This document shows positions 18 through 26,103 of a DNA stretch of 26,120 nucleotides, one piece after another (the first letter of the stretch is position 1; every line of letters begins with the position of its first letter). A program made the position numbers and the translations under genes. The notes beneath the pieces are model-generated. The model searched no databases and had not been told where the DNA came from. It saw nothing but the letters and a program-made list of their open reading frames with translations. The stretch is from a virus. The stretch covers positions 1 to 26,120 of the IMG/VR virus record IMGVR_UViG_3300000117_000205; one strand, written 5' to 3'.

Positions 18-30
18 GGTAACGCAACAC
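18..30 (+). other. Left cohesive end (cos), filled-in 13-base overhang
   Basis: GGTAACGCAACAC directly follows the adapter, and the identical 13-mer directly precedes the adapter at the right end. Joining the two ends through one copy gives a 23-bp site with two-fold symmetry: arms TCGGGG (26086-26091) and CCCCGA (30-35), with the 13-mer exactly centred. Lambda-type terminases make staggered cuts symmetric about such a centre. Both copies survive because end repair fills 5' overhangs, whereas 3' overhangs would be removed. The small terminase gene begins 55 bp to the right, as nu1 does in lambda. Confidence 0.85.
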
Positions 31-85
31 CCCGAACGAACGCTAGCGTCAGAATTTTGACATTAATTGAGGGAGCGTCAAAAAA
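31..85 (+). promoter_or_regulatory. cos-adjacent leader with short repeats (possible terminase binding site)
   Basis: This 55-bp non-coding stretch lies between the cohesive end and the small terminase gene, the place where lambda has cosB. It holds two copies of AGCGTCA (45-51 and 74-80), the palindrome CGCTAGCG (41-48), and an inverted repeat TTTTGAC (55-61) / GTCAAAA (77-83). The repeats could be terminase small-subunit sites. GGGAG at 71-75 is a plausible ribosome binding site for the ATG at 86. A TTGACA at 57-62 has no matching -10 hexamer. Confidence 0.4.
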
Positions 86-538
86 ATGACAGCAAAAGAG
101 GCCAAAAGACCAGTCGGTCGGCCAAAAATCGAAGATGCAGATTACAACGCCGCACGCGCCAGAAAGATGGAAGCTGACGCGCAAATGGCTGAACTTGAGT
201 TGTTACAAGCCAAACGCAAATTGGTGGCATCTGACGATGTTGCCGGTGCTTGGGTCGAAGTGCTGGCGGCTATGAAGGCAAAGCTGTTGGCGTTGCCTTC
301 TATCTGTGCGCCGATCTGCGCCACTGAAACTGACTTGCCAACCATTCAAAGCATATTAGAAAACCAGATAAGGGAAGCGTTAGATGAATTATCATCTTAC
401 CAACCACACGAACACGCTGGACGCACAGTCGTCACTGAAAGCGGTAATATCGGGGGCGATGCAAACGCTGAAACCGCCGCCGCGCCTTCTGGTAAGCGAG
501 TGGGCAGACCAAGAAAGGCGGCTGTCATCGGAGGCTAG
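86..538 (+). CDS. terS: Terminase small subunit (Nu1-like)
   Basis: A 150-residue protein encoded right after cos and before the large terminase, the lambda nu1 position. The middle (about residues 22-95) has the pattern of Nu1-family small terminases: a charged helix around ARKMEADAQMAELELLQAKR, then LVASDDVAGAWVEVLAAMKAKLLALPS. The role is to recognise the cos-flanking DNA and recruit the large subunit. Unusually, AT-hook-like motifs lie near both ends (RPVGRPK near residue 8 and KRVGRPRK near residue 138), which could add minor-groove DNA contacts. The start is supported by GGGAG ten bases upstream. The 3' end overlaps the large subunit gene by 155 bp in a different frame. Confidence 0.85.
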   Translation: MTAKEAKRPVGRPKIEDADYNAARARKMEADAQMAELELLQAKRKLVASDDVAGAWVEVLAAMKAKLLALPSICAPICATETDLPTIQSILENQIREALDELSSYQPHEHAGRTVVTESGNIGGDANAETAAAPSGKRVGRPRKAAVIGG

Positions 539-2249
539 TGCAGCCGCCGGTCGTTGGATCACATCACGGGCAGAATATCAACGCGGCATTATGGATGCTA
601 TCAGCGATCCGAAGCTGCGTGACATTGTTGTTATGGCTGGCGCACAGGTCGGCAAGACCGAAATGCTGTTGAACGTCATAGGCTTTCACATTCATCACGA
701 TGCTGCGCCGATCTTGTTAGTGCAGCCAACGCTGGAAATGGCGCAAGCCTTTTCTAAAGACCGTCTGGCACCAATGCTGCGCGATACACCGGCTTTAAAG
801 TATAAAGTCAAAGACCCACGCAGCCGCGATGCAAACAACACCACAACGCACAAAGTCTTCACTGGCGGTCATATCAGCCTTGTCGGCTCAAATAGTGCCG
901 CTGGGCTGGCTTCTAGGCCGATCCGCATAGTTTTATGCGATGAGGTTGATCGCTTTCCTGTTTCAGCCGGATCAGAGGGTTCGCCAATCTTGCTGGCGCG
1001 TAAACGGTCGGCCACGTTTCACAATCGCAAGATGGTAATGGTCAGCACGCCGACCAACAAAGGCGCATCGATGATTGAAAGCCAGTATGAAGAAAGCGAC
1101 AAGCGGCAATTCTTTGTGCCTTGTGAAGATTGCGGCACAGTGCAAACGCTAAAATGGAAACAAGTGCAGTGGGAGAAAGACCGACCAGAAACAGCTTGTT
1201 ATGTCTGCGAAAGCTGCGGCAGTGTTTGGGATGATCCAAAGCGCAACCGGTCGGTGCGTAAAGGGCAATGGGTTGCAACTGCCGATTTTACTGGCGTTGC
1301 CGGTTTCCACATTAATGGCATTTACAGCCCTTGGACTGTAATGGCTGACGCGGTGCGTGATTTTCTGGTTGCAAAGAAGTCAGCCGATACACTGCGCGTT
1401 TTTGTGAATACATTTTTATCAGAAACCTTTGAAGATAAAGGTGAGACCGTTGGGGAGATAGATTTTCGAGATCGGGAGCAAGATTGGTCGGGCAATATAC
1501 CAGATGACATTGTAGTCATAACGGCAGGAATTGATGTGCAGGATAGCTACTTGGCTGTTGAGGTTATCGGATGGGGGCGCGATGAGTGCAGTTTTAGCCT
1601 TGAGTGGCTAACTTTATATGGCGATCCCAGCACGCCGCATCTATGGAACGATCTCGATAATATTCTAAAAGTGGCATATACGACCGAAAGCGGGCGGCAG
1701 CTAGGCATCAGGGCTGCGTGCATAGATAGTGGCGGTCATTACACGCAAGCGGTCTATAACTTTGTCAGACCACGCGAAGGGCGGCGCATATTCGCGATTA
1801 AGGGTATGGGCGGCGAACAGCGTCCACTGGTTAGCAGACCGACCAAAAACAACATCGGCAAGATCAAATTGTTCGCAGTCGGCACTTTTCCAATCAAGGA
1901 GTTGATATTTTCGCGCCTTCGAGTACAATCAGAGGGTGCGGGATATTGCCATTTCCCAGCCGGTCGGTCAGATGAGTATTATCAGCAGCTTGCTAATAGT
2001 GAAAAAATTGTCACTAAATACCAAAAAGGCTTTCCAAGGCGGGATTTTGTCAAGACGCGCACAAGGAATGAGGCACTTGATTGCAGGGTTTACGCATATG
2101 CTGCGCTTTGCATTTTGTCGCTGAATATTAACGCTGTTGCCGATAGGGTCGTAAATGCACCGGAACCAGAAGCACCACCGCAGCCGCAACAGTCGAACCC
2201 ACTGGCACGCCGACCAAGACAGGGCGGCTTTGTTAATTCTTGGCGGTAA
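384..2249 (+). CDS. terL: Terminase large subunit (GpA family)
   Basis: A 621-residue packaging ATPase and nuclease of the lambda gpA family, close to the usual length. Visible motifs are Walker A AGAQVGKT (85-92), Walker B IVLCDE (182-187), the coupling STPT (221-224), and a Cys pair site (C247, C250 with C275, C278) resembling the zinc-binding insert of this family. The C-terminal nuclease has candidate acidic ligands at D384 (AGIDVQD), D448 (CIDSGG) and D566 (NEALD). With the small subunit it cuts concatemers at cos and drives DNA into the prohead through the portal. AAGGGA upstream supports the ATG at 384. An in-frame ATG at 459, preceded by GGGGGCG, is an alternative that would shorten the long overlap with terS. 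Confidence 0.95.
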   Translation: MNYHLTNHTNTLDAQSSLKAVISGAMQTLKPPPRLLVSEWADQERRLSSEASAAAGRWITSRAEYQRGIMDAISDPKLRDIVVMAGAQVGKTEMLLNVIGFHIHHDAAPILLVQPTLEMAQAFSKDRLAPMLRDTPALKYKVKDPRSRDANNTTTHKVFTGGHISLVGSNSAAGLASRPIRIVLCDEVDRFPVSAGSEGSPILLARKRSATFHNRKMVMVSTPTNKGASMIESQYEESDKRQFFVPCEDCGTVQTLKWKQVQWEKDRPETACYVCESCGSVWDDPKRNRSVRKGQWVATADFTGVAGFHINGIYSPWTVMADAVRDFLVAKKSADTLRVFVNTFLSETFEDKGETVGEIDFRDREQDWSGNIPDDIVVITAGIDVQDSYLAVEVIGWGRDECSFSLEWLTLYGDPSTPHLWNDLDNILKVAYTTESGRQLGIRAACIDSGGHYTQAVYNFVRPREGRRIFAIKGMGGEQRPLVSRPTKNNIGKIKLFAVGTFPIKELIFSRLRVQSEGAGYCHFPAGRSDEYYQQLANSEKIVTKYQKGFPRRDFVKTRTRNEALDCRVYAYAALCILSLNINAVADRVVNAPEPEAPPQPQQSNPLARRPRQGGFVNSWR

Positions 2250-2252
2250 ATA

Positions 2253-2834
2253 ATGGCAAACCTTTTCAATACAGATAATGCACCAACAACTGAACCGCAG
2301 CAATTTGCGATAGGTGATTTTGTTCAATGGAAACGTGAAGATATTGTTGGCGACTATCCTGTTGCCACGCACAGCGCAGAATGGGTTGCGCGGTTAGCAA
2401 GTGGCAGTAGCACAGAAATCAAAGTTGCAGCAACCGAAGCCAGCACATATTACCTTTTTACAATCTCCAGCACTGACAGTTCTGCCTTTACGCAAGGTCA
2501 CTATCACTGGCAGCTTGAAATCACAGAAACAGCGACCAGCAACCGGATTATCATTGATACCGGCACGCTGGATATTGATTTTGATCTGGATAACAATGTT
2601 GACCCGCGCAGTCACGCGCAAGTAATGATCGACAAGATCGAAAGCGTCTTGCAAGGCAAAGCGGATGCAGACGTTGCCAGCTATTCAATCAACGGGCGGT
2701 CACTGACAAAAATGTCATTTACTGACTTAATTGACGCGCGGAACTTTTACCGGCAAGAATATGCCAAAGAATTGCAGAAAGAACGCGCCAGACAAGGCGA
2801 TAACACTGGCGCAACCATCTTGGTGAGGTTTTAA
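2253..2834 (+). CDS. gpW-like head-tail connector with N-terminal beta domain
   Basis: A 193-residue protein in the gpW slot between large terminase and portal. Residues 118-180 (HAQVMIDKIESVLQG, SYSINGRSLTKMSFTDLID, then a charged helix) match the pattern of gpW-like connector modules, in which GRSLTKMS is a recurrent signature. Residues about 15-110 are predicted beta-rich, with alternating polar and hydrophobic strands. Lambda gpW is only 68 residues and lacks this part. The likely role is head completion before tail joining. The extra domain may decorate the neck or contact the portal, which is inference. The gene starts 3 bases after terL and ends 2 bases before the portal gene, so it is translated within the same operon. 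Confidence 0.65.
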   Translation: MANLFNTDNAPTTEPQQFAIGDFVQWKREDIVGDYPVATHSAEWVARLASGSSTEIKVAATEASTYYLFTISSTDSSAFTQGHYHWQLEITETATSNRIIIDTGTLDIDFDLDNNVDPRSHAQVMIDKIESVLQGKADADVASYSINGRSLTKMSFTDLIDARNFYRQEYAKELQKERARQGDNTGATILVRF

Positions 2835-2836
2835 CA

Positions 2837-4339
2837 ATGGGCATCTTTGACTTTTTCAAAGCAAAGCCTCAGCCAAAAAAGATGGCAAGGGCGTTTCACG
2901 GGGCTGACACTGGCCGACTATTCAGCGATTTTGTATCTAGCAGCCGGTCGGCAGATAGCGAAATCAAGCCATCACTGCGTATTTTACGCGATAGATGCCG
3001 CGAAATTAGCCGCAATCACCCATATGCACGCCGTTATTTGCAGATAATGACCACAAACGTAGTCGGTGCGGCTGGCGTGCGGATACAAGTTCGCAAGCGT
3101 AATGATGACGGTTCGCTAGATAGCGTTGGCAATAGGATCGTTGAACAAGCTTGGCAACAGTGGGGCAGGGCTGGTTTATGCACTGTTGATGGCCGGATAT
3201 CTTGGTCACAAGCGCAGCGGCTGTTTATTGAGACGCTGACACGCGATGGCGAGGTGCTAATCCAGAAAATCAAAAACCCAGCCGGAAACCCATTTGGCTT
3301 TTCGCTAAAGTTTTTGGAAGCCGACTATCTTGATGAGGGATATGACGCACGCCTAAACAATGGCAACGAAGTGCGGATGGGCGTTGAACTGGATCGGCGC
3401 ACTGGCAAGCCGGTGAACTATTATCTGTTTGAAGATCACCCTCATCACGATCAAGGCTATGGTTCACGCACAAAGCGGCATCATAAAATTGTGCCAGCCG
3501 ATCAGATCATTCATTGCTATATGCAAGACCGCGCTGGGCAGACCCGTGGCGTGCCTTGGATGTCTAATGTTTTATCACGTTTAAAAATGTTAGACGGTTA
3601 TGAAGAAGCAACTTTGGTCAATGCGCGGGTTGCTGCGTCAAAGATGGGCTTTTTCACCAGCCCCGAAGGTGATGGCTTTGTTGGTGACGATTATGACAAT
3701 CACGCGCCGATAATGGATGCTGCGACCCCGGGCAGTTTTATGCAATTACCGACCGGAATGTCATTCACAGCCTTTGATCCGCAAAACCCCACTGACAGCT
3801 TTGCGGAGTTTGAAAAGGGCATATTGCGCGGGATCGCGTCCGGTCTTGGTGTCAGCTATGTATCGCTGGCAAACAATCTTGAAGGCGTTAGCTATTCATC
3901 TATTCGGCAAGGCACTATCGAAGATCGTGACCATTTCAAGGTCGTCCAGCAATTTATGATCGACCAGTTTGTTGACCCGATCTATCGCGCTTGGCTAGAA
4001 ATGGCAATCACTGTTGGCCGCATCAATCTGCCAATGGGAAAATATGACCTGTTTGCCGATCAAGTGGTGTACCGGCCACGCGGCTTTGCGTGGGTTGACC
4101 CAGCAAAGGAAATCAGCGCAAGCGTTCAAGCGTTGCAAAATGGCATCGTTAGTTTGCAAGATGTGCATTCTCAATATGGGCGTGACACTGAAGAAGTGTT
4201 TGAACAAGTTAATCGTGAAAACGAATTGGCGGCAAGATATGGGATTGAAACAGCATTCCAGCCGTTCGGTGGTGGTCTGTCGAGTTACGGCCCATCAAAG
4301 CTATCAGAACAAGAGATAGGTAAAACAGATGAGCAATAA
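2837..4339 (+). CDS. Portal protein (lambda gpB family)
   Basis: A 500-residue portal protein. The N-terminal section LRDRCREISRNHPYARRYLQ followed by TNVVGAAGVRIQ, the middle GRISWSQAQRLFIETLTRDGE, and LKFLEADYLDE are recognisable lambda-type portal (phage_portal_2) signatures. Further on come the conserved DRAGQTRGVPWMS and the SYSSIRQGTIEDRDHF region. It forms the dodecameric ring at the capsid vertex through which DNA enters and leaves and on which head-tail connectors assemble. The gene follows the gpW-like gene by 2 bases. Its last 11 bases overlap the start of the protease-capsid gene, suggesting translational coupling. The length is typical and no truncation is seen. Confidence 0.94.
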   Translation: MGIFDFFKAKPQPKKMARAFHGADTGRLFSDFVSSSRSADSEIKPSLRILRDRCREISRNHPYARRYLQIMTTNVVGAAGVRIQVRKRNDDGSLDSVGNRIVEQAWQQWGRAGLCTVDGRISWSQAQRLFIETLTRDGEVLIQKIKNPAGNPFGFSLKFLEADYLDEGYDARLNNGNEVRMGVELDRRTGKPVNYYLFEDHPHHDQGYGSRTKRHHKIVPADQIIHCYMQDRAGQTRGVPWMSNVLSRLKMLDGYEEATLVNARVAASKMGFFTSPEGDGFVGDDYDNHAPIMDAATPGSFMQLPTGMSFTAFDPQNPTDSFAEFEKGILRGIASGLGVSYVSLANNLEGVSYSSIRQGTIEDRDHFKVVQQFMIDQFVDPIYRAWLEMAITVGRINLPMGKYDLFADQVVYRPRGFAWVDPAKEISASVQALQNGIVSLQDVHSQYGRDTEEVFEQVNRENELAARYGIETAFQPFGGGLSSYGPSKLSEQEIGKTDEQ

Positions 4340-6215
4340 TGACCAGATTGAAAAAGAAACAGAATTGGTGGATAATGCACCAATGGAAAACGAAGTTTTA
4401 CAAACCGAAGATCGGCTGGATCGTGGCGAACTTGTGTATCGCGCACGCGCTGCGGATATGGTGGAAGAAGATGACCGCCGCGTCAGAATGTCGATTTCAA
4501 GCGAAGAACCCGTTGAGCGTTCTTTCGGTTTAGAGGTTTTGCGTCATAGCGATGGCGCAGTAGATTTGTCAAGGTTGGATAGCGGTCACGCACCTTTGCT
4601 GTTAGACCACGACCTGACGAAACAAATTGGCGTTATTGAACGTACCTATTTGGATCAAGCAGATCGCAAGTTGCGGTCTGTGGTTCGCTTTGGAAAAAGT
4701 GCGCTGGCTCAAGAGGTTTATCAAGACGTCAGGGATGGGATACGAAGCAACGTCAGCATCGGCTATCAAATCCGCGAAATGGAACAAAAGAATGAGCGTG
4801 ATGGGACAGTCGCGATTTCATCTTGGGTTCCGTATGAAGCCAGCATTGTATCTGTTCCCGCTGACGCTGGTGTCGGCGTGAACCGCAAAGCTGAATTTGT
4901 CGAACCAGTGATTAAACAAAAGGAGGTCAATATGACCGAAGTAAATCACGAGGAAATTCGCGAAGCCGCTACTGAGGCAGCCAAGCGCGATTTTCAAAAG
5001 AATGCCAGCGAGATCATCAATCTTGCTGTTAAACACAATCGGCGCGATCTAGCCGATAAAGCTATTGGTGAAGGTCAGTCTGTTGCACAATTCCGCGCAA
5101 CATTGCTTGACGCCATTGGCGAAGGCAAGCCACTTGAGCAGTCAGCCGGTGCGGTTGATATGTCACCTAAAGAACAGCGTTCATATTCCTTTATGAAAGC
5201 GGTTCGTGGTCTGGTAAACGGTTCTGGTCTGCAAGGTCTTGAGCGTGAAGTTTCTGAGCAAATTGCAAAGAACAATGGCCGCGAAGCACGCGGTTTCTAC
5301 GCACCTGATAGCTTCTGGGGCGGTCGCCGTGATCTGACTGTTGGCACAGCTACAGCCGGTGGTCACTTGGTCGGCACAGATCATCTTGGTGATCAGTTTG
5401 TTGACGCACTCCGCGCACGTTTGGTTTTCAGCGAGCTTGGCGCACGCTTTATGACCGGTCTGCGTGGCGATGTGGCTATTCCAAAGCTGGCAACTGGCGT
5501 TTCAGCCGGTTTCGTTGCTGAGAATGGCGCAACATCCGAAGTGAACGCTGTGTTCTCACAGATCACAATGTCACCAAAGTCACTTGGCGCATTTTCAGAC
5601 GTTTCACGTTTGCTGATGATCCAGTCTGATCCATCTGTTGAGCAGATTGTTCGTGACGACCTTTTGAATGCAATTGCACAAAAGATCGAAGACGTTGCAA
5701 TCGAAGGCGGCGGTTCTAACGAGCCAACAGGCATCACTGGAACAGCCGGTATCGGTTCAGTCGCAATCGGAACCAATGGTGGCGCGTTGACTTGGCAAGC
5801 AATCACCGATCTGGTCAAAGAAGTTGAAGTTGACAACGCTGCAATCAACGGCAGCACCCTTGCCTACTTGACCAACCCGAAAGTGAAGTCACATATGGCT
5901 TCAACTCCAAAAGTTGCGTCAACAGATAGCGTAATGTTGATGGATGCGCCTTGGAATAGCCTTTATGGTTATGACTTGGCAGTGACCAACAACGTGCCAT
6001 CTGACCTGACAAAAGGCACATTGACCACTGCATCTGCAATGATCTTTGGTGACTTTAGCCAGCTTATGATGGGCTTCTTTAGCACACCAGACATCTTGAT
6101 CGATCCATACACAGCCGGTTCAACCGGTGCAGTACGCATCCGCGTAATGCAGGAAATGGACTTGGCTGTTCGTCACGCCCAGTCATTCGCTGCGTGTCTC
6201 GACATTGATGCCTAA
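4329..6215 (+). CDS. Prohead protease-major capsid fusion (S78 protease + HK97 capsid)
   Basis: One 628-residue frame joins two proteins that HK97 encodes separately. Residues about 30-185 are an S78-family prohead protease: catalytic candidates are H94 (LLLDHDL), S143 (SNVSIGY) and E170 (PYEASIVSVPA). Residues 202-628 are an HK97-fold capsid protein. It begins with a helical delta-domain-like segment (about 204-300), which would serve as the built-in scaffold, and continues with the shell domain (GGHLVGTDHLGDQFVDALRARLVFSELGARF onward). No separate scaffold or decoration gene is seen. The start is an ATG overlapping the portal end. A strong internal ribosome binding site before residue 202 suggests that free capsid protein is also made (separate entry). 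Confidence 0.9.
   Translation: MSNNDQIEKETELVDNAPMENEVLQTEDRLDRGELVYRARAADMVEEDDRRVRMSISSEEPVERSFGLEVLRHSDGAVDLSRLDSGHAPLLLDHDLTKQIGVIERTYLDQADRKLRSVVRFGKSALAQEVYQDVRDGIRSNVSIGYQIREMEQKNERDGTVAISSWVPYEASIVSVPADAGVGVNRKAEFVEPVIKQKEVNMTEVNHEEIREAATEAAKRDFQKNASEIINLAVKHNRRDLADKAIGEGQSVAQFRATLLDAIGEGKPLEQSAGAVDMSPKEQRSYSFMKAVRGLVNGSGLQGLEREVSEQIAKNNGREARGFYAPDSFWGGRRDLTVGTATAGGHLVGTDHLGDQFVDALRARLVFSELGARFMTGLRGDVAIPKLATGVSAGFVAENGATSEVNAVFSQITMSPKSLGAFSDVSRLLMIQSDPSVEQIVRDDLLNAIAQKIEDVAIEGGGSNEPTGITGTAGIGSVAIGTNGGALTWQAITDLVKEVEVDNAAINGSTLAYLTNPKVKSHMASTPKVASTDSVMLMDAPWNSLYGYDLAVTNNVPSDLTKGTLTTASAMIFGDFSQLMMGFFSTPDILIDPYTAGSTGAVRIRVMQEMDLAVRHAQSFAACLDIDA
4921..4927 (+). promoter_or_regulatory. 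Internal Shine-Dalgarno for capsid-only product
   Basis: AGGAGGT, a near-perfect anti-SD match, lies inside the fusion frame, with 4 bases to the in-frame ATG at 4932. It falls exactly in the junction between protease and capsid domains, where the peptide (VIKQKEVN) looks like linker. It is among the strongest ribosome binding sites in the window. Confidence 0.8.
4932..6215 (+). CDS. Major capsid protein (internal in-frame start)
   Basis: Translation from the ATG at 4932 would give a 427-residue capsid precursor, close to HK97 gp5 (385 residues), starting MTEVNHEEIREAATEAAKRD. It comprises an alpha-helical N-terminal segment of roughly 100 residues, which the protease should remove, and the HK97-fold shell domain. 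Hundreds of capsid copies but few protease copies are needed, so the strong internal start would set the ratio: rare full-length fusion carrying protease into the prohead, abundant capsid from this start. The principle resembles lambda C/Nu3. Expression of the short form is inferred from the ribosome binding site and domain boundary, not observed. Confidence 0.75.
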   Translation: MTEVNHEEIREAATEAAKRDFQKNASEIINLAVKHNRRDLADKAIGEGQSVAQFRATLLDAIGEGKPLEQSAGAVDMSPKEQRSYSFMKAVRGLVNGSGLQGLEREVSEQIAKNNGREARGFYAPDSFWGGRRDLTVGTATAGGHLVGTDHLGDQFVDALRARLVFSELGARFMTGLRGDVAIPKLATGVSAGFVAENGATSEVNAVFSQITMSPKSLGAFSDVSRLLMIQSDPSVEQIVRDDLLNAIAQKIEDVAIEGGGSNEPTGITGTAGIGSVAIGTNGGALTWQAITDLVKEVEVDNAAINGSTLAYLTNPKVKSHMASTPKVASTDSVMLMDAPWNSLYGYDLAVTNNVPSDLTKGTLTTASAMIFGDFSQLMMGFFSTPDILIDPYTAGSTGAVRIRVMQEMDLAVRHAQSFAACLDIDA

Positions 6216-6222
6216 AACAACT

Positions 6223-6251
6223 AGCGGGGCGGCTCCGGTCGCCCTGCTTTT
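6223..6251 (+). terminator. Putative intrinsic terminator after the capsid gene
   Basis: AGCGGGGCG (6223-6231) pairs with CGCCCTGCT (6240-6248), nine pairs including one G-U, with loop GCTCCGGT, followed by TTT. It lies in the 51-bp gap downstream of the capsid stop. The short T run suggests partial termination, which would step down tail-gene transcription relative to capsid, or an mRNA-stabilising hairpin. Confidence 0.55.
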
Positions 6252-6266
6252 CCCTTGGGGGCTAAT

Positions 6267-7398: not shown

Positions 7399-7409
7399 GA
7401 GATATAACG

Positions 7410-7796: not shown

Positions 7797-7806
7797 GGGG
7801 TAAACT

Positions 7807-16823: not shown

Positions 16824-16825
16824 CA

Positions 16826-19106: not shown

Positions 19107-19125
19107 GGCGGCTATTCCAGCCGCC
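19107..19125 (-). terminator. Convergent hairpin, terminator of the minus-strand operon
   Basis: GGCGGCT (19107-19113) and AGCCGCC (19119-19125) form a perfect 7-bp stem with a 5-base loop. Read on the minus strand it is followed by TTACTTTTTG, a usable U-rich tract. On the plus strand the following bases are not T-rich. The minus-strand gene's stop codon (19112-19114) lies inside the stem. Confidence 0.7.
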
Positions 19126-19722: not shown

Positions 19723-20308
19723 TTTGCACTTCATCCTTCCGTTTAGAAAACATTTCTATTTGATCAACTGGTGCTTTTATGCCGCTGGCACCATACAGCT
19801 TTGTGTAAAGCGCGTTGACATCACGCACACTTTTACACGCATCTAATTTTTCAGCTAAAACATCGTTGGAGGCGGCACCGACTGCCGGAGTGGATGCGAC
19901 AGCCGGTGCCTTTTGGCGAGGCTGCGGACGGGAGGGAACCGCGCCACCACCGCTGGCAAGATTACCATCATCATCATTGCTATTCAATCCGAACATCGTC
20001 AACAAACTTGCCCTGCGGAAATATGTCACGCAGCTAATAAATGACTGGGGCGTGTCTTTTTCTGGGCTGATCTGCAAAAAGCTACTGATCTTTTCGCCAG
20101 TCTCCAAATGCACCACAGTCGTCACCAGCGCACCGTCTTGGAAATATTGCGCGAATGACAGCCCATATTCGAGCAACACATCAAGCGCGGTTAGTACATC
20201 GCCAAGCGTTGAATATTCTGATTTGAACATCGGGTTCTTGCCAGACTTTCCGACAGATGCCGCCTTTCTAACATCGGCTAATGCCGCGTGCAGTTTTAGA
20301 TTTTCCAT
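19715..20308 (-). CDS. ERF-family single-strand annealing protein
   Basis: A 197-residue recombinase. The ERF core spans about residues 1-116: GKNPMFKSEYSTLGDVLTALDVLLEYGLSF, then VTTVVHLETGEKISSFLQI, TPQSFISCVTYFRRASLLTMFGL and the acidic NDDDGN, all typical of the family founded by P22 Erf. A Pro/Ala-rich linker (about 117-145) leads to a small helical C-terminal part. It anneals complementary single strands, feeding on ends resected by the exonuclease encoded just upstream. The start overlaps the exonuclease stop by 13 bases, with AAGGGC before the ATG. Confidence 0.88.
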   Translation of the reverse strand: MENLKLHAALADVRKAASVGKSGKNPMFKSEYSTLGDVLTALDVLLEYGLSFAQYFQDGALVTTVVHLETGEKISSFLQISPEKDTPQSFISCVTYFRRASLLTMFGLNSNDDDGNLASGGGAVPSRPQPRQKAPAVASTPAVGAASNDVLAEKLDACKSVRDVNALYTKLYGASGIKAPVDQIEMFSKRKDEVQND

Positions 20309-21144
20309 AGGTCTTTTGCCCTTTCAAGCCATTCGGTTTTCATTTTCCACTGATACATATGATTCCAATCTGGATCGGTGATTGATGCCAACACCTTTGG
20401 ATCGGTGCTGACGCTCAACAGGTTTTGCCGGATCAATGCTTTTTGCCGCATTTCATTCAAAGCGTACGTTATCCCGTCCGCTTGTAGTTCTTCACAGTTA
20501 TATGCGTTGAAAATGACCGCATCGTGTTCTGCTATGTAAATGATTGATGGCGTGACGCGCAGCGCGTGCCAATAAATAGCCGCTTGGCATATGTGGGCGA
20601 ACTCCGGCTTTTTAGGCAGCGTTGCCTTTGCCCAGCCTTGTGACCCGTCTTTCAACAGCTTGGTCTTGCGCGGGGCTTTGGTTTTCATCTCCGCAAACAT
20701 TGAGCCTTCAACAAGCAAATCGACAAATCCCAAAATCGGCACGTTTACATCATCCAACCAGCATTCAATGCGTTCTTCATCAATTGCGCCGGTGAAGCCG
20801 TTTTCCACACAAATATTCACGCCCTGATGCACCATTGCAGGGATAACTTCACGAAACTTCACACGCAGCACATCGTCTTCATCTGCCGGATGAAAATCAA
20901 AAGCAAGCTGTGCGGCTTCGATGGCTTCATCAATATCTGCGCCGTGGCACACTATAGATTGCACTGCCGTATGCACTGAAGTGCCAATTGCAGCGCGTTC
21001 CCCAACGCCAATTTCTTGCCGCTGTTCTTTTGTCAGATGCAGATAATCAAATATCCACTTAGCCGGTGAGCGTAAAAGCTGACTGGCCGATAAATGGCTA
21101 AACCCTGCGGTTTTCCAAAGTTCACTGATTTCCCGTTTTTTCAT
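20296..21144 (-). CDS. RecB-family PD-(D/E)XK exonuclease
   Basis: A 282-residue nuclease, first in the minus-strand operon. It shows the RecB/Cas4-like motif series: SHLSASQLLRSPAKWIFDYL at the start, GTSVHTAVQ (H58), GFVDLL (D142), FAEMKTK (E152-x-K154) and CQAAIYWHAL (Q187...Y191). Such proteins replace lambda Exo in many phages, resecting double-stranded ends to give single strands for the annealing protein. No four-Cys iron-sulfur cluster is apparent. The ATG is preceded by AGGGTG at a good distance. The operon order exonuclease, ERF, SSB-like protein supports a dedicated recombination module. Confidence 0.85.
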   Translation of the reverse strand: MKKREISELWKTAGFSHLSASQLLRSPAKWIFDYLHLTKEQRQEIGVGERAAIGTSVHTAVQSIVCHGADIDEAIEAAQLAFDFHPADEDDVLRVKFREVIPAMVHQGVNICVENGFTGAIDEERIECWLDDVNVPILGFVDLLVEGSMFAEMKTKAPRKTKLLKDGSQGWAKATLPKKPEFAHICQAAIYWHALRVTPSIIYIAEHDAVIFNAYNCEELQADGITYALNEMRQKALIRQNLLSVSTDPKVLASITDPDWNHMYQWKMKTEWLERAKDLWKI

Positions 21145-21249
21145 AGCAACACCCTAGCGCAGATCGTTCCCAAAATGCAACAGGTATTTTTTCACTTTAC
21201 AGATATGATCGTTTTGGGCAAGGATAGGGCAACTGAAACGGGGGCAGCT
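21145..21249. promoter_or_regulatory. Divergent control region between recombination and early operons
   Basis: This 105-bp gap is the only divergent junction, so both transcription units probably start here. An inverted repeat CCCAAAA (21169-21175) / TTTTGGG (21212-21218) frames it with a 36-base spacer, and GATCGTT occurs beside both arms. For the minus strand, TTGCCC (complement of 21216-21221) and TAAAGT (complement of 21194-21199) with 16 bp between them could be -35 and -10. On the plus strand TATGAT (21204-21209) could be a -10 but has no good -35. Promoter calls are weak; the repeat arms may be operator half-sites. Confidence 0.45.
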
Positions 21250-21678
21250 ATGTCTGGAAGCAAATCAAGAAACAAAGGTCGCGGCTATGAATATGAGATA
21301 GCCAAAGAACTTTTCGACCATCTTGGGTTGAATTTTGTGCGGGAACTGGATCAAACGCGACAAGCGCATCTTGGCGATTTGGTGACGACTGATTGTGATT
21401 TTCCTTTTGTGATTGAATGCAAAAGATACAAATCCGGCGTTTCTGGTGACTGGTGGTCACAAGTTTGCACAGCCGCTGCGGTTGCTGAAAAACTACCGGT
21501 GCTGTTTTACCGTCTTGATAGAATGAAAACCCGCGTGCGCTTGCCAGTGGCGGCTATCGTGGGGCTTGCTGGCTGGTCGCCTAATGAAGATGCGGCTGAA
21601 CAGTACGATTGGCGATATGCCGTTGAAACTGATCTGGACACGGCAATGATGATAATTCGGGAGCACATTAATGGATGA
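21250..21678 (+). CDS. PD-(D/E)XK endonuclease, possible junction resolvase
   Basis: A 142-residue nuclease starting at the ATG at 21250; upstream codons of the open frame run across the divergent control region and are not credible. SRNKGRGYEYEIAKELFDHLG gives E14 or E16, HLGDLV gives D43, and FVIECKRYKSG gives E56-x-K58, a clean E...D...ExK core. GDWWSQVCTAA and PVLFYRLDR follow, as in small phage resolvase-like proteins. It may cut branched DNA before packaging, or act as a general endonuclease. It opens the rightward early operon and overlaps the next gene by 8 bases. Confidence 0.75.
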   Translation: MSGSKSRNKGRGYEYEIAKELFDHLGLNFVRELDQTRQAHLGDLVTTDCDFPFVIECKRYKSGVSGDWWSQVCTAAAVAEKLPVLFYRLDRMKTRVRLPVAAIVGLAGWSPNEDAAEQYDWRYAVETDLDTAMMIIREHING

Positions 21679-21931
21679 CGATATCGGCAAAAAGACGGTT
21701 GGAGACCGCGAATATACGATGGTTTCAAGCGAAACGTGGATTGATGTGAAAGATTTGACCGTCAACATTGTCAAAGGCAGAACCGGCGTAAAGGTCTGGA
21801 TTTACGAACGCAACACCGGCAATCCCGATCCATTAGCTATCTGCGAAGCCGATTATGTGCGGATCACAAATAAGCGATCGAATATTATACCGTTTTTTCC
21901 TAAGGGGCATTTCAATGATCCAAAGCGGTGA
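21671..21931 (+). CDS. Small early protein, unknown
   Basis: An 86-residue protein, beta-rich by pattern: SETWIDVKDLTVNIVKGRTGVKVWIYERNTGNPDPLAICEAD, ending in PFFPKGHFNDPKR. The charge alternation suggests a small barrel. It overlaps the nuclease stop by 8 bases and the next gene by 17, so it is co-translated in the early operon. No family is recognised. Confidence 0.6.
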   Translation: MDDDIGKKTVGDREYTMVSSETWIDVKDLTVNIVKGRTGVKVWIYERNTGNPDPLAICEADYVRITNKRSNIIPFFPKGHFNDPKR

Positions 21932-22100
21932 TGGTACATTTGCTGAACTTTACGAACAAGGCAGATGCCCGAAGTGTCGAAGCTATATGTCAAAGGAAAA
22001 CGACATATGGGCTTGTCCGGTCTGCAAAATGACCCATAAAGGAGTGGATGAAGATGGAAACCGAACACAATCTGAAAATGGAAATGCTGACGATTGCTGA
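21915..22100 (+). CDS. Small zinc-ribbon protein
   Basis: A 61-residue protein from the ATG at 21915, supported by AAGGGG about nine bases upstream. GRCPKCRSYMSKENDIWACPVCKMTH carries two CPxC knuckles 17 residues apart, the classic four-Cys zinc ribbon. The C-terminal part is acidic and polar and probably flexible. Phage zinc ribbons of this size often modulate transcription or bind host proteins, but the target is unknown. It overlaps the next gene by 47 bases. Confidence 0.65.
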   Translation: MIQSGDGTFAELYEQGRCPKCRSYMSKENDIWACPVCKMTHKGVDEDGNRTQSENGNADDC

Positions 22101-22476
22101 AATCGGCACAGCGTGGAAATGCGAACCGGTCAAATTGCCGCAGTATTGTCAGCTAGACTTTGCATTGACGCGGCAAGGCAAGATTGAAGCATTTGCTGAA
22201 GTCAAGTGCAGGACATTTCCGCGCAACAGATATAAAACGTCACTGATCCACCTTCATAAAATGATGTATGCGCGGCAAGTGGCTTTCGAGACTGGCATAC
22301 CGACTTTTTTGATAGTGCGCTGGACTGACTGGATAGGGGCTTGCAGCTTCAAGGTGGATTTTGCCACAACAATCGGGGGCAGACGGGATCGCGGGATTGA
22401 ACGCGATTATGGGCTAATGGCAGAGGTTCCAATAAGCGAATTTCATATGGTAAGGGAATTAAATGAAACGATCTGA
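22054..22476 (+). CDS. PD-(D/E)XK nuclease-like protein
   Basis: A 140-residue protein. The core is YCQLDFALTRQGKIEAFAEVKCRT, with D35 and E49-x-K51, followed by the helix SLIHLHKMMYARQVAFETG and the strand PTFLIVRWTDW. This is the compact nuclease pattern seen in small phage endonucleases. AAAGGAG precedes two in-frame ATGs, at 22048 (3 bases away) and 22054 (9 bases); the second has better spacing. It is the third such nuclease in the window outside the RecB-like exonuclease. The role could be host DNA degradation, recombination or packaging. Confidence 0.65.
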   Translation: METEHNLKMEMLTIAEIGTAWKCEPVKLPQYCQLDFALTRQGKIEAFAEVKCRTFPRNRYKTSLIHLHKMMYARQVAFETGIPTFLIVRWTDWIGACSFKVDFATTIGGRRDRGIERDYGLMAEVPISEFHMVRELNETI

Positions 22477-22732
22477 AGCACTGGAAAAAGTGCAGCTAAT
22501 ATTAAACGAACGCGGTGCGTCTTATGGCGATCTGCGGAAAAACTGGACGCAAACTAGCCAGATGATGAGTATGGTGGTCGGCAAAGATGTAACGCCGGAG
22601 CAATTTGGCGCGATGATGATTGCTATGAAGCTGTCAAGGCTTGCCAATAGCGAATGCAGCCACGCCGACAGCCTGTTAGACATTATCGGGTATGCGGCTT
22701 TAACTTTGGAGATTTTGCACGATGAGCATTAA
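22463..22732 (+). CDS. Small all-alpha phage protein (DUF6378-like)
   Basis: An 89-residue helical protein. ALEKVQLILNERGASYGDLRKNW, then VTPEQFGAMMIAMKLSRLANSE and HADSLLDIIGYAALTLEIL fit a common phage family labelled DUF6378, whose RxxxYGD, KxxR and DSxxDIxGYA pattern hints at a MazG-like helical fold. MazG-type enzymes hydrolyse nucleotides, but the catalytic set is not clear here, so activity is not claimed. AAGGGA gives a good ribosome binding site. It overlaps the genes on both sides. Confidence 0.65.
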   Translation: MKRSEALEKVQLILNERGASYGDLRKNWTQTSQMMSMVVGKDVTPEQFGAMMIAMKLSRLANSECSHADSLLDIIGYAALTLEILHDEH

Positions 22733-23465
22733 AGCAGTATCTTGGGCATTGGAACAATCGCTTGGCGATAGCACTGCAAAGCTGGTTCTGCTCGGCATCT
22801 GTGACCGTTATAACGATGATTATAATGTGGCGTGGCCTTCAATGAAATGGCTATCGATTGCGGCTGATTGCAGCGAAAGAACTGTGATCCGCAAGGTGCA
22901 AAAGCTTGAGGAAATGGGGCTGTTGTCGATAGAAAAGCGACCAAACAAGACTAACCGATATCAAGTAACACCATTGGAGACCAACCATAGTGACAACCTG
23001 TCACCTAGTGACACAGCTATGTCACCTCATTATGACAACCATATGTCACACGAACTATATAGAACAATAAATAATAAAAAGGGGAAAACCAAAGTTGTTG
23101 ATTGGGAACCTAATGAGGCTGATCGCCAATTTGCTCAAAGCAAAGGTTTGGATGCAGCCGAAGTGCTAGAGGCAATCCGCTTGTGGGATAAGCAGAACGG
23201 CAACAAAGCCGCCTACGTTGATCTGACAGCCTTTTGGCAGAACTGGTGCATACGAGATGCCAAAAAGAAGCCAAAGCGCGTCACAGGCCATTCTAGGCCA
23301 TCTAGCGGCAATTATAACAATCAGTCTAATGACTGGACACCACCGCAGCGAAAGATGGTCACGCTGGATCAGTGGCAAAGGCTGACTGACGGAATGCGTA
23401 CCTATTACAAGCAAAACCGGCCAGATGTGATCGCCGAACTAAAAAAAGTTGGTGCGGATGTGTAA
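22722..23465 (+). CDS. Replication initiator, lambda O-like
   Basis: A 247-residue protein in three parts. Residues 1-83 are a winged helix-turn-helix of the replisome-organiser type (GDSTAKLVLLGICDRYND, WPSMKWLSIAADCSERTVIRKVQKLEEMGLL, NRYQVTP). Residues 84-125 are a polar linker whose DNA holds an inverted-repeat array. Residues 127-180 (WEPNEADRQFAQSKGLDAAEVLEAIRLW, AYVDLTAFWQNWCIRD) resemble DnaT/O-type C-terminal domains that contact the helicase loader. It likely binds the repeats within its own gene and recruits host DnaB. No phage DnaC, P or helicase gene is seen, so host functions are needed. The ATG overlaps the previous gene by 11 bases. Confidence 0.78.
   Translation: MSIKAVSWALEQSLGDSTAKLVLLGICDRYNDDYNVAWPSMKWLSIAADCSERTVIRKVQKLEEMGLLSIEKRPNKTNRYQVTPLETNHSDNLSPSDTAMSPHYDNHMSHELYRTINNKKGKTKVVDWEPNEADRQFAQSKGLDAAEVLEAIRLWDKQNGNKAAYVDLTAFWQNWCIRDAKKKPKRVTGHSRPSSGNYNNQSNDWTPPQRKMVTLDQWQRLTDGMRTYYKQNRPDVIAELKKVGADV
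22990..23080 (+). other. Putative replication origin inside the initiator gene
   Basis: Six half-sites alternate in orientation within 60 bp: GTGACA (22990), TGTCAC (22999), GTGACA (23008), TGTCAC (23020), TGACA (23033) and TGTCAC (23044). They form three inverted repeats with spacers of 3, 6 and 6 bases. At once to the right comes an AT-rich stretch (23054-23080, only three G/C by eye), a candidate unwinding element. Lambda has the same order: palindromic iterons then AT-rich DNA in the middle of gene O. The encoded peptide is a low-complexity linker, so the DNA signal rather than the protein is probably under selection. Confidence 0.75.
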
Positions 23466-23542
23466 AAAGATGTAAATAGGTGTTGACAGTGGGTTGGAAA
23501 AGGCGCAAGGTAAGTCATCAACAAGGAAACGGGAGTTCCAAA

Positions 23543-23701
23543 ATGATCAACACATATTACAAAAATCAAATTGTTCAAGTTCTGCCAATCAAAAGCCAAT
23601 CTAATCCAGATCATATTCTTGTGCAGTTTGAAAATGGCGATAAAAAATGGGTTTGGATTGACGATGTTGATTTGGTTCAAACCTTAAGGGCGGTGGCATA
23701 A
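23543..23701 (+). CDS. Small protein, unknown
   Basis: A 52-residue protein from the ATG at 23543, with GGGAG about seven bases upstream. It reads NTYYKNQIVQVLPIKSQSNPD then HILVQFENGDKKWVWIDDVDL, suggesting a small beta barrel of SH3-like size (HILVQFENGDKKWV is reminiscent of KOW/Tudor-type strands). No specific family is recognised. It follows a 77-bp gap after the initiator, and its stop overlaps the lipoprotein start by one base. Confidence 0.6.
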   Translation: MINTYYKNQIVQVLPIKSQSNPDHILVQFENGDKKWVWIDDVDLVQTLRAVA

Positions 23702-23922
23702 TGCCCCGCCTTTTCGTCATAGCGGTATTGGTGGCCGGTTGTAGTTATACGCCGGTCGCTGATCTGCGGGTGTCCGGGGATAAAGCGCAGCTATATCAGC
23801 GTGACCTAACTGAGTGCCGCCAGCTAGTCAAAGAAGCGTTGTCGCCTTTGCAGTTTGGTGCGGAAATTAAATGGCTTAATGAGTGCTTGCGGGGACGTGG
23901 GCATAGCGTGTTGGGGGTCTGA
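23701..23922 (+). CDS. Small lipoprotein
   Basis: A 73-residue protein with a signal peptide and lipobox: PRLFVIAVLVAGC, with LVAGC at residues 10-14, so the mature protein should begin at C14 and be lipidated. The mature part (CSYTPVADLRVSGDKAQLYQ, RDLTECRQLV, NECLRGRGHSVLGV) has two more Cys, which may pair, and the RGRGxxVL ending common in small phage and bacterial lipoproteins. It could be an outer-membrane lipoprotein in superinfection exclusion or lysis (Rz1-like), but the sequence does not decide. The start overlaps the previous stop (TAATG). Confidence 0.7.
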   Translation: MPRLFVIAVLVAGCSYTPVADLRVSGDKAQLYQRDLTECRQLVKEALSPLQFGAEIKWLNECLRGRGHSVLGV

Positions 23923-23923
23923 T

Positions 23924-24040
23924 ATGGTTAAGGATACGATTGGAATGCTGGTATTGACTGCGCTGGTCATTACGTTTGGCACTAATGCCATCACGCAGGA
24001 TTACAACATCTGGGCATTGATGGTGCGGTTTGGGGGGTAA
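23924..24040 (+). CDS. Tiny membrane protein, unknown
   Basis: A 38-residue frame starting at the ATG at 23924, with GGGGG about nine bases upstream. VKDTIGMLVLTALVITFGTNAITQDY has one membrane-spanning helix, followed by NIWALMVRFGG. It directly follows the lipoprotein gene and precedes the HNH gene by 2 bases. Too short to classify; it may partner the lipoprotein at the envelope. Confidence 0.5.
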   Translation: MVKDTIGMLVLTALVITFGTNAITQDYNIWALMVRFGG

Positions 24041-24042
24041 TT

Positions 24043-24675
24043 ATGGAAATTATTAGCAGAAAACAAGCATTGGCTGATGGCCTACAAAGATATTTCACTG
24101 GCAAAGAATGCCCACATAATCATTTGTGCGAAAGATATACATCAAATCACAAATGCGTAATTTGTTCTTCAGAACACGCAAAATTGCCCCAAAGCAAAAA
24201 ACAAATGCGTCAAAGATATAGAAAGTTTAAAAAAGAAATTTGGCAAAGAGCAAAGTTTCGTATGGAACAAAACCCACAATACAAAGAAGCGCGGCTTCTT
24301 TATATGAGACAATGGTATCGCGAAAATCGTGAATATTGTTATGCAAAGTCAAGAGAATACATTGCAGCAAACCCTGAAAAAAACACAAGATACAAAAATA
24401 AATGGGCAAAAAATAACAAAGGATATGTGGCAGCAAATTGGAAAAAAAGAGACAAAGCAATAAGAAAAGCCACACCAAAATGGTGCGACATAAATGCAAT
24501 TGCAAAAGTTTATGAAAAAAGAATTTTGTTAGACGAAAAAACCGGCATTCAACATCACGTTGATCATATTGTGCCTTTGCGCGGCAAAAACATTTGTGGG
24601 TTGCACGTCCCTTGGAACTTGCAAATCATAACCGCAGATGAAAACTTGCGTAAAGGCAACAGCTTTAATGGCTGA
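24043..24675 (+). CDS. Free-standing HNH endonuclease
   Basis: A 210-residue nuclease. The N-terminal SRKQALADGLQRYFTGKECPHNHLCERYTSNHKCVIC is a Cys/His zinc ribbon often fused to phage HNH domains. A long, very basic, Lys/Tyr/Asn-rich middle follows (about 48-160). The HNH core lies at the C-terminus: HHVDHIVPL (H172, D174, H175), then PWNLQII (N192) and ADENLRKGN (N201). It is clearly more AT-rich than its neighbours by eye (runs of A and many AAA/AAT codons), which suggests arrival from elsewhere, as for homing-type endonucleases. It overlaps the next gene by 8 bases. Confidence 0.85.
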   Translation: MEIISRKQALADGLQRYFTGKECPHNHLCERYTSNHKCVICSSEHAKLPQSKKQMRQRYRKFKKEIWQRAKFRMEQNPQYKEARLLYMRQWYRENREYCYAKSREYIAANPEKNTRYKNKWAKNNKGYVAANWKKRDKAIRKATPKWCDINAIAKVYEKRILLDEKTGIQHHVDHIVPLRGKNICGLHVPWNLQIITADENLRKGNSFNG

Positions 24676-24829
24676 GGAAATTGAATGCCCTGAGTGTCAG
24701 GGCTATGGCTGGCTTGTTTATTGGGTGGGCAAGCGTGGAGCCAATGACCCTTGTGGCAGCGAAGTGCAAGATGATTGCGATGTATGTCACGGGTCGGGGA
24801 TGATAGAGAACCCAAATTGGAGTGGATAA
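24668..24829 (+). CDS. DnaJ-type zinc-finger mini-protein
   Basis: A 53-residue protein from the ATG at 24668, inside the HNH stop region. CPECQGYG and CDVCHGSG are two CxxCxGxG motifs, the zinc-binding repeat of DnaJ, separated by 29 residues (GWLVYWVGKRG and NDPCGSEVQDD). One pair can bind one zinc. Phages encode many such minis; proposed roles are in chaperone mimicry or nucleic-acid binding, with none proven here. The next gene begins immediately after the stop. Confidence 0.65.
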   Translation: MAEEIECPECQGYGWLVYWVGKRGANDPCGSEVQDDCDVCHGSGMIENPNWSG

Positions 24830-25192
24830 ATGGAAAAACGTATAGATCAATCAATGCGCTATAAAATCACAAAGATGTTGCGTGATAGGCTAAACAATGA
24901 CCCAGATATGCGGGAAATGCTTTATAACATATCCTTAGAATTATGGGATCAAATGATCGATCATTATGGTGATGATATGGAGCAAACTAACGGCATATAT
25001 GATGAAGAAGGTCAATTTGTTCCACATATTGCTGGCGTTACTGTTTGGGATGAAATGAAAGGTGAGTTTTTATATGTGCCTTTAACAACCACAGAGTTTG
25101 ACCATCTTGAACATATGAATGATGTGCTTGGCGATACAAAGGTAATGCTGGCTATGTATCACGAAATCCGCGATGGCAAGGTTTCTGCATAA
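24830..25192 (+). CDS. Hypothetical acidic protein
   Basis: A 120-residue acidic protein starting directly after the previous stop. A helical front (YKITKMLRDRLNNDPDMREMLYNISLELWDQMIDHYGDD) is followed by a strand-rich part (HIAGVTVWDEMKGEFLYVPLTTTEF) and a final helix (LEHMNDVLGDTKVMLAMYHEI). I recognise no family. It is AT-rich by eye like the HNH gene before it. It is the last gene before a strong terminator, so it ends the early transcript. Confidence 0.6.
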   Translation: MEKRIDQSMRYKITKMLRDRLNNDPDMREMLYNISLELWDQMIDHYGDDMEQTNGIYDEEGQFVPHIAGVTVWDEMKGEFLYVPLTTTEFDHLEHMNDVLGDTKVMLAMYHEIRDGKVSA

Positions 25193-25212
25193 CGTCAACA
25201 GCAAGGGGAAGC

Positions 25213-25241
25213 AAAGGGCGGCATTGACCGCCTTTTGTTTT
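25213..25241 (+). terminator. Strong intrinsic terminator ending the early operon
   Basis: AAAGGGCGG (25213-25221) pairs with CCGCCTTTT (25228-25236), nine pairs with one G-U, loop CATTGA, then TTTTGTTTT (25233-25241). This is the clearest intrinsic terminator in the window. It separates early genes from the two genes next to cos. Confidence 0.88.
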
Positions 25242-25258
25242 GCGGATAACCTAGCGCG

Positions 25259-25447
25259 ATGGATGACTGTTGCTTGTTTTTTGAGAATGAAGTCGATTGC
25301 GGCATTTGCGGCGCGCCGACTTATGCTATTGTGGAAGCTAATAGCGGCACGATCAACTGCACTGAGTGCGATGGCATTATTTTTGACGCACGCGATTGCC
25401 ACGGTACGGTCGTAATATTGGAATTAGATAGCGAGACACAACACTGA
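25259..25447 (+). CDS. Small zinc-ribbon protein near cos
   Basis: A 62-residue acidic protein after the terminator. DCGICGAPTYAIVEA and INCTECDGIIFDA supply C14/C17-type and CxxC knuckles about 17 residues apart, a four-Cys zinc ribbon; a leading CC pair may add to it. Its stop overlaps the next start (TGATG). By position it may be the first gene of the late transcript that runs across cos into the terminase genes, perhaps as a regulator. The function is not recognised. Confidence 0.55.
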   Translation: MDDCCLFFENEVDCGICGAPTYAIVEANSGTINCTECDGIIFDARDCHGTVVILELDSETQH

Positions 25448-26082
25448 TGCAGATCAACGTCAAAAGCAATATCAGCGCGTTTGCAAAGGCAATGGATGCG
25501 TTTGGCAAGAACCAGATACCATTTGCCACGGCTAACGCATTGACCAGCACAGCGTTTGATGTACGCAAGCAAATCGTTGACGACACCTATCCAAACAGCT
25601 TCACAGTACGCAACAAGCGGTTTGCAAGCACAATGTTCCGCGTTGAGCCAGCCAATAAGCGCAACCTAACAGCGCGTGTCTACGACCGGCTGGGGCGTGA
25701 CTATATGACAACGCAAGCCGAAGGCGGGTTCAAACGACCACGCGGCAGCAACATTGCAATCCCGTCAAGGCAAATCAAACGCACAGCATCGGGCAAGGTG
25801 CCAAAGGCAAAGCAACCGCGTAACGTGCTGGGCGGTCGAGGGTACAAGGCAACGCTGCAAAGCGGGCAAGAAGTTATTGCAGAACAGACGGGGCGGGGGG
25901 CAGCGCGTAAACAGCGCGTGTTGTACCTGTTAGAGAAGATTGCACGCATTCCAAAGCGGTTTCCGTTCTATGAAGATGCAAACAAAACGGCTGGCAGGAT
26001 GTTTGACCGAAATTTCAAGAAAAGCTTCGCGTTTGCCAAGCAGACAGCGCGGCGCAAAGCAAAAGGTACTTTGGGAACGTGA
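25447..26082 (+). CDS. Minor tail protein Z-like (gpZ), displaced
   Basis: A 211-residue very basic protein ending 8 bases before the right cos. The layout follows lambda gpZ: an N-terminal helix region with QIPFATANALTSTAFDVRKQ (lambda: AVPGAAAMAINRVASSAIS), a basic middle with VRNKRFASTMFRVEPANKRNLTARVY, then VLYLLEKIARIPKRFPFYEDANKTAGRMFDRNFKKS, comparable to RYPIDVVKIPMAVPLTTAFKQNIER. In lambda Z lies between FII and U and completes the head-proximal tail end. Here that slot is empty and this gene lies at the other end of the linear map, yet next to the terminase genes once cos is joined. The match is by eye only. Confidence 0.5.
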   Translation: MQINVKSNISAFAKAMDAFGKNQIPFATANALTSTAFDVRKQIVDDTYPNSFTVRNKRFASTMFRVEPANKRNLTARVYDRLGRDYMTTQAEGGFKRPRGSNIAIPSRQIKRTASGKVPKAKQPRNVLGGRGYKATLQSGQEVIAEQTGRGAARKQRVLYLLEKIARIPKRFPFYEDANKTAGRMFDRNFKKSFAFAKQTARRKAKGTLGT

Positions 26083-26090
26083 CTATCGGG

Positions 26091-26103
26091 GGTAACGCAA
26101 CAC
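26091..26103 (+). other. Right cohesive end (cos), filled-in 13-base overhang
   Basis: The second copy of GGTAACGCAACAC, lying directly against the right adapter. Together with the copy at 18-30 it defines the 13-base 5' overhang. The left arm of the symmetric site, TCGGGG, spans 26086-26091. Only 8 bases separate the last gene from the cut. Confidence 0.85.

Follow-up and report, generated by a model that had tools for sequence, protein, structure and literature searches.

The DNA analyzed here (the window) is the whole of the IMG/VR virus record IMGVR_UViG_3300000117_000205, 26,120 bases in length. It carries the terminase genes terS and terL close to its left end, a minor tail protein gene close to its right end and, just inside a short non-phage sequence at each extremity, a copy of the same 13-mer, GGTAACGCAACAC. 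These features, along with the elements of a cohesive-end (cos) site that is formed when the two ends are joined, are collected in Table 1. We interpret the window as coming from a small tailed phage whose linear genome it covers completely, both physical ends included, and which has a lambda-type cos site that yields a 13-nt 5' overhang, a reading to which we assign a probability of roughly 0.9. The virus itself is an uncultured bacterial virus, probably of marine origin.

The first-pass annotation of this DNA had proposed that the 13-mer abuts adapter at both ends, and a search of both strands bears this out: it occurs twice only, once at each end and in the same orientation. The flanking 17-nt sequence, CGACGCTCTTCCGATCT, which we take to be an Illumina adapter remnant, is present in inverted copies whereas the 13-mer is direct, and the 13-mer therefore belongs to the DNA and not to the adapter. 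The longest terminal repeat inside the adapters is exactly 13 bases, which confirms the proposed termini and the count of 26,073 unique bases; arithmetically, the probability that so long a terminal match arises by chance is about 4^-13. Joined through one copy, the ends read TCGGG, GGTAACGCAACAC, CCCGA, with arms that are symmetric at 6 of 6 positions, one base of each arm lying within the 13-mer.

The same joint exists in other viruses. TCGGG, the 13-mer and CCCGA were found contiguously in five IMG/VR contigs (two of them from one dataset), which align to both the right and the left end of the window with 83-91% identity and thus have homologous flanks on both sides; the aligned bases on the short side of the joined site number 56 in L002 and 103 in L004. 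More generally, the site next to terS is conserved among relatives, and many of their contigs begin or end at the same bases. The left ends were assessed in a set obtained by searching with TerL, blind to cos, from which the best 80 of 230 loci were taken. In 22 of these, coming from 19 datasets as counted via contig names, the contig starts at base 1 of its own overhang allele. Four more start one base earlier with a T, which is the last adapter base, the base preceding the overhang in joined sites being G in 60 of 61. The site is internal in 15 loci, of which 14 are truly joined, since L085 is really an end: L085 and L196, from the same metagenome, begin with 19 nt of P5 adapter followed by an A and then the overhang. 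Two of the 80 loci end before reaching the contig end. The right ends were assessed in 21 loci found via the last gene of the window. Here seven stop exactly at overhang base 13, two run one base further (the A of L092 is the first adapter base, and the C of L093 could be phage) and six are joined. The 13-mer is thus whole at left and right ends alike, which fits the prediction for filled-in 5' overhangs.

A pattern search for the site recovered at least 119 viral contigs; among the 80 listed, which overlap the TerL-derived set, 35 begin directly with the 13-mer, no base preceding it, and in four it is preceded by a single base. Two records have both ends, with GGTAACGCGCGAC at each: G051 (23,401 bases) and G035 (27,994 bases, its left copy preceded by a single further base). 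A longer terminal repeat in relatives would have spoken for another kind of terminus, and in both of these the repeat is 13 bases and not longer. A stricter form of the site is present in 22 bacterial genome contigs, 17 of them from Alphaproteobacteria as judged by their titles. A GpA-family TerL lies downstream in 71 of 102 sites (the 80 listed and the 22 bacterial ones) within the stretches examined, some of the others ending early. Two pattern matches, L109 and L124, are without both a cosQ box and TerL and are probably due to chance.

Thus, the joined sites, the recurrent contig ends in relatives and the GpA-family TerL support the lambda-type staggered terminase cuts that had been suggested, and two of the features expected of lambda-type cos packaging, a GpA-family TerL and single fixed genome ends adjoining terS, were found. 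A GpA-type terminase would cut the concatemer at one cos site with nicks 13 nt apart, the staggered nicks would leave GGTAACGCAACAC as 5' overhangs, and end repair during library preparation would fill these in, placing the 13-mer at both ends of the assembled sequence.

Three alternatives compete with this account of the ends. The same staggered nicks could be filled in within the cell before packaging, so that the virion DNA would be blunt, with a direct repeat of 13 bp in duplex form at its termini. The resulting sequence is identical, and assemblies do not separate a duplex repeat from an overhang; however, the TerL belongs to the GpA family, which is the lambda cos family, and the Rhodobacter capsulatus RcA phages (RcRhea, RcCronus and RcSaxon), which have a similar layout but a very distant TerL, are reported to have 13-base 5' overhangs in the sections of the source drawn on here (PMC8601537). 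We regard a duplex repeat as improbable. A 13-nt 3' overhang of the HK97-like kind would be in keeping with the common occurrence of 3' overhangs among cos phages. Polymerase end repair, however, removes 3' overhangs, and trimmed contigs would begin with the base that follows the overhang; this is seen in none of the 50 TerL-derived loci that could be placed against the site (22+4+9+15), and 22 start 13 bases earlier, which makes this alternative very improbable. Lastly, a random staggered break in a circular or permuted molecule, followed by fill-in, would also yield a short terminal repeat, but such an assembly or library artefact is contradicted by the same-base ends in 22 contigs from 19 datasets and by the matching rule at right ends, and is extremely improbable.

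Table 1. Features at the two ends of the window (positions in the 26,120-base record; HTH, helix-turn-helix)
Feature	Position	Strand	Remarks
Adapter remnant CGACGCTCTTCCGATCT, non-phage	1..17	+	sequence match
Cohesive-end sequence GGTAACGCAACAC, left copy, 13 nt	18..30	+	relatives' contigs begin at the same base
cosN right flank CCCGA	31..35	+	joined site in 5 contigs
Conserved box CTAGCGTCAGAA, counterpart of lambda I2 by position only	43..54	+	12 nt after overhang
GTCA-N6-TGAC repeat 1, candidate cosB element	48..61	+	
GTCA-N6-TGAC repeat 2	77..90	+	29 bp from repeat 1; overlaps terS start
terS, 150 aa, no HTH found	86..538	+	PHROG 57 match, later part only, 79-176 of 199
AT-hook-like motif KRPVGRPK, TerS N-terminus	104..127	+	not reported by Pfam
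terL, GpA-family ATPase and nuclease	384..2249	+	PF05876 3.5e-90, PF20454 6.5e-86
AT-hook-like motif KRVGRPRKA, TerS C-terminus	494..520	+	Pfam AT_hook 14.9 bits, below 17.4 cutoff
Minor tail protein, last gene before right end	25447..26082	+	PHROG 1924
cosQ-like box GGTACTT	26065..26071	+	starts 26 nt upstream of overhang
cosN left flank TCGGG	26086..26090	+	joined to CCCGA in 5 contigs
Cohesive-end sequence GGTAACGCAACAC, right copy, 13 nt	26091..26103	+	relatives' contigs end at the same base
Inverted copy of the CGACGCTCTTCCGATCT adapter, non-phage	26104..26120	-	reverse complement match

Among cultured phages the nearest TerL proteins, at 56-60% identity, are those of CRP-821, CRP-811 and CRP-406 (CRP-822-type roseophages), which fall outside the clade of the window in a TerL tree while lying inside the same wider group. 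No near DNA match of the window was found in the cultured phage collection. Elsewhere in the window, a single open reading frame of 628 aa (4329-6215) combines a prohead protease domain with that of the major capsid protein.

In order, the putative site comprises an upstream cosQ-like box, cosN, a downstream CTAG box in the place of lambda I2, terS and terL, and the functions of cosQ, cosN and I2 may be ascribed to its elements by analogy, from position and likeness to lambda. In relatives the cosQ-like box reads GGT(A/T)CT or GGGTCC(T/C) and begins between -25 and -30; one or the other form is present there in 60 of 61 dereplicated joined sites, a set that was prefiltered for a looser box. 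The GGTACTT of the window at -26 differs from the exact lambda heptamer GGGTCCT. On the other side, CTAGCGACAGAA was found 12 nt after the overhang in the 61 dereplicated joined sites. The search pattern largely imposed GGTAACGC, AC, C14, C16 and CTAG on these sites; the CTAG of the CTAGCGTCAGAA box was part of the pattern, whereas GCGACAGAA was not. Across relatives the overhang varies most in its right half, and the left halves GGTTGTTC, GGTTATTC and GGGAACGC also occur among them.

A profile built from 60 of the 61 sites, with the window excluded, was run on 13 targets. It matches the junction of the window (E 8.4e-14), as well as CRP-406 (9e-11), phiAP1 (2.6e-7), phiNP (3.2e-5) and CRP-811 (5.3e-5), with weak partial matches to Pyei1 (0.007) and to the opening bases of the Vibrio phi 2 record (0.009); it finds no cos in AcaML1, WO or RcOceanus. 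A blastn search of cultured phages with the site consensus gave CRP-406 as its best match (E 0.04), and six others at E of at least 2. Within cosN, positions 0/14 are paired in 60 of the 61 sites and -2/16 in 44, C14 and C16 being imposed by the main pattern. Positions -1/15 are paired in 28 (null 21.6, p 0.034) and -3/17 in 35 (null 27.4, p 0.019), and the five outer pairs give p of at least 0.37, the p values of these nine tests being uncorrected. At the family level, flank pairing averages 4.0 of 8 against 3.7 for swapped flanks (p 0.012), a difference carried by two variable pairs, and p was 0.045 when the flanks were shifted by -2 as a control; these values point at most weakly to family-level covariation of the cosN flanks. 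GTCA-N6-TGAC is present in at least one copy in 17 of 37 genomes with distinct AT-hook TerS proteins of the kind described below (two copies in 14) and in none of 71 others. With no copy in 20 of those 37, it was rejected as a general TerS site.

The small terminase subunit of the window departs from the usual type. In the sections drawn on here, a review of terminases gives the HTH as a feature common to all TerS proteins, and also describes the TerS of the T4-like phage 44RR as being without a canonical HTH (PMC9611059). No N-terminal winged HTH was found in the window TerS by PHROG 57 match, alignment or predicted model. The PHROG 57 match spans 19-190 of 199 in the TerS of the relative L071 versus 79-176 in that of the window, and in alignment the window protein is without most of the first ~64 residues of HTH-type relatives. 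Nor is an HTH encoded upstream in the same gene, because terS starts 55 bp after the left 13-mer and only 68 bp from the left end. AlphaFold2 predicts helices at 17-45, 49-80 and 84-103 between low-confidence tails (mean predicted local distance difference test score, pLDDT, 67.7; predicted template modeling score, pTM, 0.34), and for the L071 TerS the same three helices with an N-terminal HTH-like domain (mean pLDDT 73.1, pTM 0.31). Fold searches of the PDB gave no match below E 0.1 for either model; the weak matches were mostly to MerR-like regulators for the HTH-type model, and formed no coherent DNA-binding fold for the window TerS. A tblastn search with the window TerS in 50,697 cultured phage records returned one weak match (E 8e-3), confined to the core.

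Both predicted disordered tails of the window TerS carry GRP motifs that, by sequence, appear AT-hook-like. We defined a short TerS class by an N-terminal GRP and a length of up to 156 aa, so that the N-terminal GRP in all its members is true by definition. The class accounts for 61 of 147 site entries in which a TerS was found (contigs repeat, and the window is counted twice) and for 37 of 108 distinct TerS proteins; the other 86 entries, like the CRP and RcRhea rows of the tree, are labelled 'HTH/other', a label that does not stand for individual confirmation of an HTH. Two properties do not follow from the definition. First, GRPRK recurs near the C-terminus of every one of the 37 distinct proteins, with conservation averaging 64% over the remainder of this tail; its invariance in an otherwise variable tail suggests that TerS itself binds DNA. 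Second, in the 104-row TerL tree the 34 short-TerS rows form one clade (Shimodaira-Hasegawa-like approximate likelihood ratio test 100), nested among the others and requiring one change; this tree comes from a quick search and has some very long branches outside the short-TerS clade. The same cosN alleles and CTAG box are found in genomes of both TerS types, partly because the search asked for them. Thus GGTAACGCAACAC, GGTAACGCGCGAC and GGTTGTTCGGCAG are each present with both types, exchange via mixed packaging could be the source of such common alleles, and exact contig starts are likewise seen with both (for example L008 and L071). The length of A/T tracts, considered as an AT-hook target, does not differ between TerS types (p 0.90); their A/T fractions are 0.72 versus 0.66 (p 0.001, the rows being related).

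At a little under even odds, we propose that the HTH, the presumed cos-reading domain, was replaced in a single event by AT-hooks in the two disordered tails of TerS, with no permanent effect on cosN or the I2 box. TerS would then be a minor-groove clamp that reads cos through AT-hook contacts with the downstream A/T-rich segment, while most of the cos specificity would come from the interaction of TerL with cosN. Somewhat less probable is that the short TerS is an accessory subunit only, with a separate HTH protein of phage or host recognizing cos. For this speak the failure to find an HTH in TerS, the lack of room for one upstream in the same gene and the other small genes of the window, most of which carry no assignment; against it stands the invariant GRPRK in all 37 short TerS tails. 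Literature searches for 'terminase small subunit' with 'AT-hook', in the hyphenated spelling only, gave nothing on an AT-hook TerS, and among the matches listed in broader TerS searches there was no AT-hook. As a separate observation, cos and terS of L071 are separated by a gene (62-1249) in which Pfam, applied to this locus only, detects ParB and DNA methylase domains; similar genes occupy this place in L053, L055, L070, L075 and L077, all with HTH-type TerS, and not in the window.

Several observations weigh against the overall interpretation. The arms of the two-fold symmetric 23-bp site are as the first-pass annotation described them, but 6-11-6 symmetry occurs at 8 of 26,073 positions of the circularized window against 6.4 expected, so that the symmetry is at chance level, proves nothing alone and was rejected as proof of cos. 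No cos was found by the search rule in 28 of the 80 TerL-derived loci, and nine others start within the overhang or in the gap before the CTAG box; L018, which was scored as having no cos, starts at the place of the overhang with other letters, AAGGGAAGAGGGG. Six of the 21 right-end loci end too early to reach the site. The site profile finds no cos in CRP-821 or RcRhea, and on lambda cos it is not significant (E 0.74), another stretch of lambda scoring better (0.14); homology to lambda cos by profile was thus rejected. Finally, the 5' polarity is deduced from the chemistry of the library and the family of the terminase, and AT-hook contact of TerS with the A/T-rich segment beyond the CTAG box is an inference.

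With these termini, the genome of a member of an uncultured phage group is delimited exactly. Because the filled-in overhang is where contigs end, public assemblies can reveal physical termini, and the site pattern, which recurs in at least 119 viral contigs and in 22 contigs of bacterial genomes, is usable for finding ends, prophages and satellites. Moreover, a cos packager that has seemingly lost its HTH while retaining the cut site offers a direct way to test, in a matched pair of relatives, which subunit confers cos specificity. Some sites have other surroundings. In Shimia abyssi (L233, NZ_PYGJ01000001.1, 889-5428) an integrase, a small gene and an NrS-1-type/D5 primase precede the cos site, and no TerL was found within the 8 kb examined; by its gene content this looks like a phage satellite resembling phage-inducible chromosomal islands. 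NrS-1-type primase genes are also near the cos site in L232 and L220. In L231 (an alphaproteobacterial metagenome-assembled genome) and L226 (Acidiphilium sp. PA) the site is near an HK97-type capsid gene, with an integrase in L231 and no TerL found in the stretch examined; judged by these genes, each could be either a truncated prophage or a satellite that carries a capsid gene.

In comparison with phage lambda, the window has a GpA-family TerL and the same order of cosQ-like box, cosN, I2-like box, terS and terL, and in each GCTA begins at base 12 beyond the overhang. The greatest variation in the right half is a further likeness. Because the profile match is not significant, the likeness rests on this order, the spacing and TerL. 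The cosQ heptamer of lambda is at -30 instead of -26, and its overhang is of 12 nt, with other letters, against 13 in the window. The spacing of terS had been described as that of lambda; the distance of 55 bp holds, but lambda Nu1 starts at bp 191, 178 bp after the 12-mer. Unlike lambda, no Nu1-type HTH was found in the window TerS, and in the place of cosB the window has the two GTCA-N6-TGAC copies as candidates, no search having been made for lambda R motifs.

Closer in TerL are CRP-821, CRP-811 and CRP-406 (PMC12629253), whose gene order is similar to that of the window, a tail gene adjoining terS in CRP-821 and CRP-406. The cos-like regions that the profile finds in CRP-406 and CRP-811 are a further likeness; their records and that of CRP-821, unlike the window, are circular, and the TerS of CRP-821 has weak, sub-cutoff Nu1 and HTH matches. 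In CRP-406 (L107, 28189-28323) and CRP-821 (L105, 1-276) GG and the CTAG-like box are, by eye, one base closer together (24 against 25), a spacing that would suit a 12-nt overhang. The portion of the main text of the CRP-822 paper drawn on here makes no mention of termini, cohesive or PhageTerm (PMC12629253).

RcRhea, the RcA phage compared directly, is like the window in having a box (GGGTCCT) upstream, and terS and terL adjoining the left end. It is unlike the window in its overhang, GGTTCCTTCGCGC, and in its TerS of 233 aa with a weak Nu1 match, and its TerL sits on a very long branch of the tree. Its record (L237, NC_028954.1) carries GGTTCCTTCGCGC at its end and again near its start, at 81-93, directly after adapter-like bases 62-80, which we take to be Nextera adapter; from the sequence, bases 1-80 of this RefSeq genome appear to stem from a chimera formed in the library. 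The overhang 13-mers are not mentioned in the literature searched. Termini of the lambda cos kind, and 13-base 5' overhangs in RcA phages, were known already (PMC8601537, in the sections drawn on here), and what the window and its relatives add to these systems is the change in TerS.

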